Origin: Hyphomonas polymorpha PS728
GTDB lineage: Bacteria > Pseudomonadota > Alphaproteobacteria > Caulobacterales > Hyphomonadaceae
Length of the DNA stretch: 64,000 nt
Assembly (NCBI RefSeq): GCF_000685315.1
Contig: NZ_ARYM01000001.1
Coordinates: 62,001-126,000, forward strand
Direction: 5' to 3'
The notes below the pieces were generated by a model, which saw nothing but the letters and a program-made list of their open reading frames with translations, was not told the DNA's origin and did not search any database. Position 1 is the first letter of the stretch. Each line of letters begins with the position of its first letter. Position numbers and translations under genes: made by a program. Of this stretch, positions 29,652 through 36,402 are shown piece after piece.

Positions 29652-32384
29652 ATGGCCGACACCGCCCCGCTTCCCTTCCGCCTGCCGCCCGCCTTCGAGG
29701 CGTGGTTTGCCGCGCGCGGCTGGTCGCCCCGGCCCCACCAGCTTGCCTTGGCAGAGGCGTCGCTGTCCGGCACCAGCGCCCTCCTCATCGCTCCCACAGG
29801 CGGCGGCAAGACGCTGGCAGGCTTCCTCGGCACCCTGATTGAGCTTGCAGAGCGCCCCAAGTCCAACTCTGACATTCCCTCTCTCCACACCCTTTACATC
29901 TCGCCCCTCAAAGCCCTCGCCGCCGACGTTCAGCGCAATCTGATGACGCCGGTGTCGGAGATGGCGCTCCCCATCCGCATCGAGACGCGCACCGGCGACA
30001 CCGCCCCCCATATTCGCCAGCGCCAGCGCAAGACCCCGCCGGACATCCTGCTGACGACGCCCGAACAGCTCGCCCTGCTGATCGCCTCCGATCACGCCGC
30101 CAGCTTCTTCGCTGATCTCAAATGCGTCATCATCGACGAGATCCACGCCATCGTGCCTTCCAAGCGCGGCGATCTCCTCGCCCTCGGTCTCGCCACGCTG
30201 GCCGAATGGTCCCCTACCTGCCGCTTCCTCGGCCTCTCCGCCACCGTCCGAGACCCGGAACACCTCGCCGGCTGGCTCGACGTGCGCAGCCTCGCCGCGC
30301 AACCTTCCACCCCTCCCGCCAAAGGGGTGAGGGGGCTTACAAGCAAAGCGCAGGCGCAGCCGCCCCTCGCCGCGGGCGAGGGAATAGCGGCGAGCAATCC
30401 AGAAAACCGTGTACGGATTATAGAGACCCCCTCCATTCTCACCCCCGACATCTCCATCCTCGTCTCCCGCGAGCGTATCCCCTGGTCGGGCCATTCCGGC
30501 CGCTTCGCCGTGCCGGAAGTCTATGAGGCGATCCGCGACGCCACGATGACGCTGGTGTTCGTCAACACGCGCAGCCAGGCAGAGCTTCTCTTCCAGGAAC
30601 TGTGGGCCGCCAATGAAGACGGCCTCCCCATCGCCCTGCATCACGGCTCGCTCGCCCGTGACCAGCGCGAGCGGGTGGAGGCCGCCATGGCGGCGGGCCA
30701 GTTGAAAGCGGTCGTCTGCACCTCCACCCTCGATCTGGGGATAGACTGGGGCGAGGTTGATCTCGTCCTCCAGATGGGCGCCCCCAAGGGCGCGGCCCGC
30801 CTCATCCAGCGTATCGGCCGCTCCAACCACCGCATGGACGAAGCCAGCCAGGCCATCCTTGTGCCTACAAACCGGTTTGAAGTCCTCGAATGCCGCGCCG
30901 CCGAAGCCGCCGTCGAGGCCGGCGAAATCGACGGGGAGGGGCCACGAAACGGCGCACTCGACATTCTCGCCCAGCATGTGATGGGCCGCGCCTGCGGCGA
31001 AGGCTTCCACCTCGCCGCCCTCTATGACGAAATCCGCCGCGCCCAGCCCTATCGCGATCTCGACTGGGAAACCTTCGAGCGCATCGCCGATTTCGTCGCT
31101 ACCGGCGGCTATGCCCTCAAGACCTATGACCGGTTCCACCGCATCGTCCGCCGCGCAGACGGCCTCTGGGTCGCCCGCACCCCGCGCGACAAACAGGCCC
31201 ACCGTATGAACATCGGCGCCATCGTCGAAGCTCCCATGCTCAGCGTCCGCCTCGCCAGTTTTGCAGGGCAACCTTCTCCTCCCCCGCCTGCGGGGGAGGT
31301 GCCCCGCAGGGGCGGAGGGGGGCAGCCCAGCAATGCCAAGCCAACGGTCGCCACCCCCACAAGCAAAGCGCAGGCGCAGGCGCGCTCCGCCGCAGGCGGA
31401 GCAACAGCGCCGAGCAATAGAATAATACGCCCCGGCCGCAAGCTCGGCGAAATGGAAGAATACTTCCTCAGCCTGCTGACGCCCGGAGACACCTTCCTCT
31501 TCGGCGGTGAAATCCTCCGCCTGCTGGGTATTGACGGCATGGATGCCCTCTGCGCCCGTGCCCAGTCAGACAGCCCCGCCATCCCCACCTATAATGGCGG
31601 CAAGTTTCCGCTCAGCACCTTCCTGGCAGACCGCGTGCGCCACATGATCCACAACCGGGAAGCGTGGAAACACCTGCCAGACCCCGTGCGCGAATGGTTC
31701 GAGATCCAGGAGCTGCGCTCGGTCATTCCGCCGCCGGATCATCTGCTCGTGGAAACTTTCCCCCGCGCAGACCGGCACTATCTCGTCTCCTATCCCTTCG
31801 AGGGGCGCCTCGCCCATCAGACGCTGGGGATGCTCGTCACCCGCCGCCTCGAACGCGCCGGGGCCAAGCCAGTCGGCTTCGTCGCCAGCGAATATGCCAT
31901 GGCCGTCTGGGGCATGGAGGATATGCGCGGCCTGGATATGGACGCGATCTTCCATCCGGACATGCTGGGCGATGATCTGGAAGAATGGCTCGATGAAAGC
32001 GCCCTGATGAAGCGCACCTTCGCCCATTGCGCTCAAATCTCCGGCCTCATCCACCGGAACCTTCCGGGGGCGGAGAAAAGCTCCCGCCAGGTCACCTTTT
32101 CAACCGACCTCATCTTCGATGTCCTGCGCAGCCATGAGCCTGATCACATCCTGCTGCAGGCCACCCGCGCCGACGCCGCCACCGGCCTCCTTGATGTGCG
32201 CCGCCTGTCAGACATGCTGGCCCGCATCCATGGCCACATCGTCCACAAGCCCCTGGCGAAGATCAGCCCCTTCGCCGTGCCCGTCATGCTGGAAGTCGGC
32301 CGCGAGCCCGTCTTCGGCGCCTCCGCCATGGAAGCCATCCTCCGCGAAGCCCAAGAAGACCTCGTCCGCGACGCTATGGGGTAG
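29652..32384 (+). CDS. lhr: Lhr-family DEXH-box DNA repair helicase with two in-frame palindromic inserts
   Basis: This is the ligase-associated DNA damage response helicase, a superfamily 2 enzyme of about 820 residues in relatives. Here it has 910. Motif I APTGGGKT lies near residue 47, DEIH near 161, the motif III SATV near 198, and QRIGRSNHRMDE (motif VI) near 390. The excess comes from two low-complexity inserts at about residues 216-249 and 539-589, encoded by related palindromic DNA elements. The first falls between the two RecA lobes and the second just before GRKLGEMEEYF. Both keep the frame, so the protein is probably made. The 3' end overlaps the convergent gene by 11 bp. Confidence 0.92.
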   Translation: MADTAPLPFRLPPAFEAWFAARGWSPRPHQLALAEASLSGTSALLIAPTGGGKTLAGFLGTLIELAERPKSNSDIPSLHTLYISPLKALAADVQRNLMTPVSEMALPIRIETRTGDTAPHIRQRQRKTPPDILLTTPEQLALLIASDHAASFFADLKCVIIDEIHAIVPSKRGDLLALGLATLAEWSPTCRFLGLSATVRDPEHLAGWLDVRSLAAQPSTPPAKGVRGLTSKAQAQPPLAAGEGIAASNPENRVRIIETPSILTPDISILVSRERIPWSGHSGRFAVPEVYEAIRDATMTLVFVNTRSQAELLFQELWAANEDGLPIALHHGSLARDQRERVEAAMAAGQLKAVVCTSTLDLGIDWGEVDLVLQMGAPKGAARLIQRIGRSNHRMDEASQAILVPTNRFEVLECRAAEAAVEAGEIDGEGPRNGALDILAQHVMGRACGEGFHLAALYDEIRRAQPYRDLDWETFERIADFVATGGYALKTYDRFHRIVRRADGLWVARTPRDKQAHRMNIGAIVEAPMLSVRLASFAGQPSPPPPAGEVPRRGGGGQPSNAKPTVATPTSKAQAQARSAAGGATAPSNRIIRPGRKLGEMEEYFLSLLTPGDTFLFGGEILRLLGIDGMDALCARAQSDSPAIPTYNGGKFPLSTFLADRVRHMIHNREAWKHLPDPVREWFEIQELRSVIPPPDHLLVETFPRADRHYLVSYPFEGRLAHQTLGMLVTRRLERAGAKPVGFVASEYAMAVWGMEDMRGLDMDAIFHPDMLGDDLEEWLDESALMKRTFAHCAQISGLIHRNLPGAEKSSRQVTFSTDLIFDVLRSHEPDHILLQATRADAATGLLDVRRLSDMLARIHGHIVHKPLAKISPFAVPVMLEVGREPVFGASAMEAILREAQEDLVRDAMG
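30299..30398 (+). repeat. Palindromic REP-like element inside lhr, copy 1
   Basis: Runs from a shared GCAACCTTC to a shared CGAGCAAT end. It has a first inverted repeat (ACCCCT 30309-30314 with AGGGGT 30323-30328), a 21-nt core identical to copy 2 (30339-30359), and a perfect 8-bp hairpin with a 3-nt loop (30364-30371 with 30375-30382). All of it is translated in the helicase frame. Confidence 0.75.
31268..31418 (+). repeat. Palindromic REP-like element inside lhr, copy 2 (longer)
   Basis: Has the same 5' GCAACCTTC and 3' CGAGCAAT as copy 1. It contains a 10-bp hairpin (31278-31287 with 31290-31299), a GCCCC/GGGGC hairpin (31301-31313), the 21-nt core shared with copy 1 (31359-31379), and an 8-bp hairpin (31384-31391 with 31395-31402). 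The open hairpin parts resemble the C-rich/G-rich palindromes often found between genes in alphaproteobacteria. Here they code for Pro/Gly/Ala-rich peptide. Confidence 0.75.
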
Positions 32385-36217: not shown

Positions 36218-36402
36218 CCACCTAACCGCCGAAGCAAAACCCCCCGAAGGCCCCGCCTCTCGGGCCAAAAGCGCTGCGCCTAATGCCCCGGCCCCAGCTT
36301 CGCCAGCGCCTCCCCCCTGTTCCGGGGTGGCATCTTCCTGCCCTGTTCCTCCTGCCGCCGCCCTGTTGACCCGGCCCCCGCGCCGCGCCAATCCTCCTCT
36401 GC

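Follow-up and report, generated by a model that had tools for sequence, protein, structure and literature searches.

Palindromic REP-like repeats in frame within loops of the helicase gene lhr in Hyphomonas

The lhr helicase gene of Hyphomonas polymorpha PS728 contains two in-frame inserts. Their best explanation, to which we give a probability of about 0.85, is that dispersed and normally intergenic hairpin repeats of three REP-like families (fam1, fam2 and fam3) have entered permissive loops of the gene and are translated as flexible linkers. In sequence comparisons, this reading draws on the dispersal of the repeats, the empty sites of relatives, the filling of the same loops in separate lineages, the replacement of native residues and a recurring reading frame.

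Two composite inserts in the helicase gene

The window analysed is a stretch of 64,000 nt from the forward strand of contig NZ_ARYM01000001.1 (positions 62,001 to 126,000), part of a genome assembly of 4.05 Mb in 71 contigs (GCF_000685315.1). The lhr reading frame runs without interruption through both inserts and encodes 910 aa. With 1059.5 bits against NCBIfam TIGR04121 (cut-off 850), the product belongs to this family of ligase-associated helicases, the match falling into two stretches (best 251-903) divided at insert B. The Pfam domains DEAD, Helicase_C, WH_Lhr and DEAD_assoc are present, and the product matches M. smegmatis Lhr (5v9x) with an E value of 6.5e-70. Passages of PMC7437997 and PMC10953399 describe Lhr as a DNA-repair helicase. 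The initial annotation put the protein about 90 residues above its relatives, a fair estimate: insert-free Lhr of the same genus (837 aa) is shorter by about 73 aa, and the family profile, with its 804 positions, by about 106. That the three sites of interest, A, B and C, lie in surface loops is suggested by length variation and homology; a model predicted for the window Lhr alone had a pLDDT of 37.5, and its result was not used. The features, in window coordinates, are:

29652-32384, forward strand: lhr, ligase-associated DEXH-box helicase (TIGR04121), host of the inserts; 910 aa; NCBIfam, Pfam and 5v9x matches
29847-29876, forward strand: loop at site A, residues 66-75, without an insert here; from the genus alignment, filled in G008, G015, G019, G023 and G061 (locus L348)
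30299-30398, forward strand: site B insert, residues about 217-249, composite of two elements; from insert-free relatives, the repeat and a fold z of -3.15
30308-30336, forward strand: opening half of insert B, a short hairpin rich in C and G, fam2 REP type; fuzzy match with 3 substitutions
30339-30398, forward strand: fam3 copy 1, 60 nt, read TSKAQAQPPLAAGEGIAASN; covariance model R1, 82.8 bits
31268-31418, forward strand: site C insert, residues about 540-589, composite of two elements; from insert-free relatives and a fold z of -2.19
31278-31322, forward strand: fam1 REP in insert C, hairpin CCTCCCCCGCCTGCGGGGGAGG then a second stem, read PPPPAGEVPRRGGGG; exact fam1 match, with dispersed intergenic copies
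31359-31418, forward strand: fam3 copy 2, 60 nt, read TSKAQAQARSAAGGATAPSN; covariance model R1, 82.0 bits

Two in-frame palindromic inserts had been proposed for lhr, and both are found, at 30299-30398 and 31268-31418. They have the common start (GCAACCTTC, at 30299 and 31268) and the common end (CGAGCAAT, finishing at 30398 and 31418) ascribed to them. The 21-nt core is indeed identical (30339-30359 and 31359-31379) and has two occurrences in the window where 0.01 are expected. The final 60 nt of the inserts share 83% identity and fold into the same double hairpin, and the strong hairpins claimed for both agree with the z scores above, obtained for single-stranded DNA. When the window was scanned with model R1, the match next to the two insert copies reached 13.7 bits. 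The idea of one element per insert needs revision: the palindromic, REP-like nature stands, but each insert joins two different elements rather than being a single unit. Fuller copies of the fam2 type lie at site B in G016, G021 and G023. The shared leader GCAACCTTC was dropped as a part of the mobile element, as it is found ahead of few dispersed copies, and probably lies outside it. Elsewhere in the window, at 36309-36330, there is a palindrome like fam1 with two substitutions (CCTCCCCCCTGTTCCGGGGTGG).

Three families of dispersed repeats

The 60-nt fam3 element is a well-delimited small repeat family, whose head (ACAAGCAAAGCGCAGGCGCA) and tail (GAGCAA) are constant and enclose a double hairpin with covarying arms. 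Over 11 copies, 87.9% of the cells are paired and both sides have changed in 10 of 13 pairs; the covariation score is 0.649 against 0.185 in shuffles, none of the 500 shuffles reaching it. A covariance model built from these copies finds 99 in 30 of 42 same-genus genomes, and further copies are present in records of Ponticaulis and other Hyphomonadaceae. Copies of fam3 often stand in divergent pairs 16 nt apart (G007:C1:524707-524841, G019:C1:911643-911777, G033:C1:513019-513153 and others), and in G008 and G061 in tandem pairs. Across the genus, fam1 has 0-23 matches per genome, the reversed fam1 pattern used as a control having none, and fam2 has about 50 matches in 16 genomes. The window genome itself has two further fam3 copies beyond lhr (contigs C13 and C2), four fam1 matches, three of them outside lhr, and four fam2 matches. 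Other genomic copies, whose lack the initial annotation would have counted against it, are thus present for all three families and dispersed throughout the genus. Nearly all of those sampled are intergenic, as had been said of such elements.

This dispersal bears on the simplest alternative, that slippage or drift produced the inserts as ordinary Pro/Gly/Ala linkers of low complexity, with a resemblance to REPs due to GC bias. Loop B can be lengthened in other ways: G100 has a QDPGGQ tandem there, and G187 a stretch that is not palindromic. However, copies of the 60-nt unit, with their constant ends and covarying double hairpin, lie elsewhere in 30 genomes, the window copies stand at 82.8 and 82.0 bits against 13.7 for the next match, and the reversed fam1 control is blank. 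For the window inserts this alternative is already refuted by the dispersed copies, and we regard it as scarcely credible.

All three families are REP-like in being short palindromes, dispersed and mostly intergenic, with a copy number per genome that is low for a REP. On inspection against PMC3733652, fam1 and fam3 fall outside the GTAG REP super-family, the terminal unpaired GTAG being absent from the ends of their copies. REPs of the CGTC super-family have, in the description given there, a CGTC (or TGTC/CCTC) tag, an 8-9 bp stem starting with A-T pairs and a CCA tail. By the same inspection these are also different, as fam1 starts with CCTC but has a stem of G/C only and fam3 has no such tag. 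A profile search for the Y1 transposase PF01797 gave no match in the window genome, although control genomes gave matches; those in the genus are few and all weak. With no RAYT (Y1 tyrosine transposase) gene in the window genome, the repeats are not placed in a REPIN/RAYT system.

Filled and empty loops among relatives

Alignment of Lhr from close species, proposed as a check, does uncover insert-free versions: in most of 37 same-genus genomes the protein has no insert and a length of about 837 aa. Inserts are present in at least 14 same-genus species and are confined to loops A, B and C, with differing element families. Loop A is filled in the genomes listed above (by fam1 plus fam3 in G061), loop B in G000, G002, G005, G008, G016, G020, G021, G023, G025 and G031, and loop C in G000, G002, G008, G020, G021, G023, G030, G031 and G061. 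At each loop the content differs between species, being fam1 pairs, fam2, fam3 or others. Close relatives therefore do not all carry the same inserts, the outcome that would have spoken against the original proposal; most are insert-free, and in others these loops hold different palindromes. The same-genus lhr frames listed have no stops, and the elements are in-frame palindromic insertions with insert-free orthologues. In G002, lhr is split over contigs at the fam1 REP of site A (G002:C1:130999-131232 and G002:C2:1-72; L130, L094), the cause being either assembly joining across the repeat or a rearrangement.

In sister pairs the site is empty in one partner, and the other has its insert in place of native loop residues; no target-site duplication or clean duplicating insertion is visible in the pairs compared. 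Because native residues are replaced, a hairpin copy may have been inserted by template switching in replication or repair, or else by some enzyme. Disruptive or out-of-frame insertions would be lost, and an occupied loop could gain further copies by exchange with other repeats.

Site B is also used outside the genus. In a second family of the same order (f2), 51 of 60 sampled genomes match a site-B query, and about a dozen, from several genera, have inserts there, most of them palindromic and with sequences unlike those of the genus. The aligned genomes of this family have no inserts at sites A and C, apart from one at C in G303, and all three sites are empty in the aligned genomes of families f3, f4 and f5. 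A class-wide sample, searched at site B, comprised 72 genomes with a match, of which only the window genome, G100 and G187 are split there. The lengthening is without a palindrome in G100 (L328), which has the short QDPGGQ tandem repeat, and in G187 (L329), where the stretch is unrelated. In G261 the lhr frame near site B appears broken, with one TGA and two overlapping matches (L333, G261:C1:1623110-1623546), and the gene is perhaps a pseudogene or carries a sequencing error. Some genomes of the order have no lhr match.

The number of events was approached through a FastTree phylogeny of 88 Lhr core sequences, with parsimony on the state of each site and gains and losses counted together. The minimum is 5 changes for 5 filled species at A, 15 for 24 at B and 6 for 10 at C. 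As shuffling of labels gives means of 4.9, 20.9 and 9.6 changes, respectively, filled sites are clustered on the gene tree at B and C and not at A. That differing elements are found at one site speaks for repeated entry. Shared occupancy in the clade of G000, G008, G016, G023, G031 and G061 may represent old inserts exchanged later, so the counts of changes are not counts of insertions. Could one insertion in an ancestor, or a few, with losses and exchanges afterwards, account for the whole pattern, the loops being remodelled by ectopic exchange with other repeats? The clade around the window species shares filled loops B and C, G000 and G061 have a near-identical composite at C, and in the window clade forward fam1 at the three loops comes after a CAACC leader, which 5 of 21 lhr copies have, compared with 1 of 70 intergenic ones. 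This is nevertheless an unlikely history, though one of some weight, as G015, G019, G020/G025, G005/G002 and G021 lie apart on the gene tree beside empty sisters, with differing elements and boundaries, and no site is filled in three other families of the order.

The reading frame recurs. Forward fam1 units at A, B and C share one frame (PPPPAGEV..EGG), as do the fam3 units at A, B, C and in thiC (TSKAQAQ.. or TSNAQAQ..), while reverse-oriented fam1 units use two. Dispersed copies commonly have all six frames open. The used frame is open in 90 of 128 fam1 copies, against 111 and 101 for the other forward frames, and in 28 of 30 fam3 copies, against 29; on these counts it is not the one most often open, so stops alone do not account for the choice. 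The frames kept avoid Arg-rich, Cys-containing or hydrophobic readings.

The core of insert-bearing lhr is under purifying selection, with pN of 0.02-0.11 and pS of 0.11-0.41 in eight species pairs. In homologous inserts, where site numbers are small, pN is comparable with pS, and insert pS is below core pS in several pairs (0.021 against 0.272 at A in G008/G023; 0.073 against 0.296 at B in G016/G023). This pattern fits young or exchanged DNA without constraint on the peptide. Insert-bearing lhr could instead be a decaying gene in which inserts only mark loss of function, a reading that would suit the lack of clear protein-level constraint on the inserts and the genomes of the order without an lhr match. 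It is very improbable given the constrained core and the stop-free frames listed for the genus. The intact frame and the constrained flanks suggest that the inserts are translated.

A preferred host, and comparison with known systems

Over 13 genomes (G000, G002, G005, G008, G015, G016, G019, G020, G021, G023, G025, G030 and G061), lhr, spanning about 2.7 kb of about 3.8 Mb, contains 26 of 121 fam1 matches; certain palindromic places are matched on both strands in this count, and the lhr share may be somewhat inflated, as the fam1 pattern was derived from lhr. Coding context at about 115 sites outside lhr (about 62 fam1 clusters, 26 fam3 loci outside lhr and thiC, and 27 fam2 loci) was surveyed by a codon log-odds score trained on lhr rather than by gene calling. 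None of the fam1 clusters is convincingly coding on both sides. Four loci flagged as coding on both sides (L221, L396, L405 and L413) were judged by eye to be antisense or composition artefacts and rejected. The sampled coding hosts are lhr and thiC for fam3 and lhr only for fam2, the thiC gene (phosphomethylpyrimidine synthase) of G020 having an in-frame fam3 copy (L361, G020:C1:981492-981551, read TSNAQAQRPGAEGDGTAASK). An ability to enter genes, suggested from the window alone, thus holds for loops A, B and C of lhr and, in one species, for thiC. lhr is a strongly preferred host and not one among many.

The likeliest reason for the preference is that the cell can mostly do without the gene, whose loops are also unusually easy to replace, although tolerance alone does not readily account for one gene holding a fifth of the copies. 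Selection might act to keep the inserts if the linkers, or hairpins in mRNA or DNA, altered helicase activity or expression, along the lines of a speculation in PMC3733652. The strong preference for one repair gene, the filling of the same loop in two families and published reports of repair genes as the sole REP-tagged genes in many species would agree with this. We consider it improbable, because the peptides are not conserved and have pN comparable with pS, most same-genus species lack inserts, and unrelated peptides swap at one loop. A bolder and rather doubtful suggestion is that lhr is a true attractor, some property of gene or product (a helicase acting on hairpins of its own gene, or selection for tuning linkers) lodging palindromes in the same loops across lineages. 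If true, it would bear on the reported REP excess in other DNA-repair genes.

REPINs are short paired palindromes dispersed in the genome and mobilised by RAYT transposases. The repeats described here are likewise dispersed short palindromes, but the window genome yielded no Y1 transposase and copy numbers are low. A published study counts REPs in H. jannaschiana, and a term search of its text found no passage on intragenic copies; a literature search on Lhr with insertions gave nothing relevant.

By description, the inserts also resemble the Rickettsia palindromic elements (RPEs), which in the accounts within the reviews PMC2229807 and PMC3733652 lie both between genes and in frame in conserved genes. 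RPEs occupy many genes, 19 reading frames being cited in PMC2229807, whereas nearly all sampled coding copies here are in lhr, in three loops of one gene and from several unrelated element families. Sections of PMC3733652, a survey from 2013, also describe REPs that lie in frame within genes of several species, frequently as dimers; many of them fall in repair genes (uvrA, uvrB, UvrD, recB, dnaE2), and those of recB are at about the same site in two Xanthomonas species. Repair genes are there the sole tagged genes in many species, chance hits are doubted and the excess is unexplained. Neither Lhr nor Hyphomonas is named in the text of that survey.

The lhr inserts resemble these GTAG and CGTC REPs in lying in frame in a repair gene, but fam1 and fam3 have neither GTAG nor the layout of CGTC plus an AT stem. 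In-frame palindromic repeats are thus already known as a kind, from Rickettsia and from PMC3733652; new here are lhr as a recurrent acceptor, its three loops, the convergence of two families and the 60-nt element. Unrelated repeats in the same loop of two families make lhr a natural test case for the colonisation of proteins by repeats. Going beyond the GTAG/CGTC survey, filled and empty loops are traced here across 88 Lhr sequences, and their presence across dozens of relatives makes the puzzle of REPs in repair genes testable, through the copying route, the constant frame and any change to the helicase.
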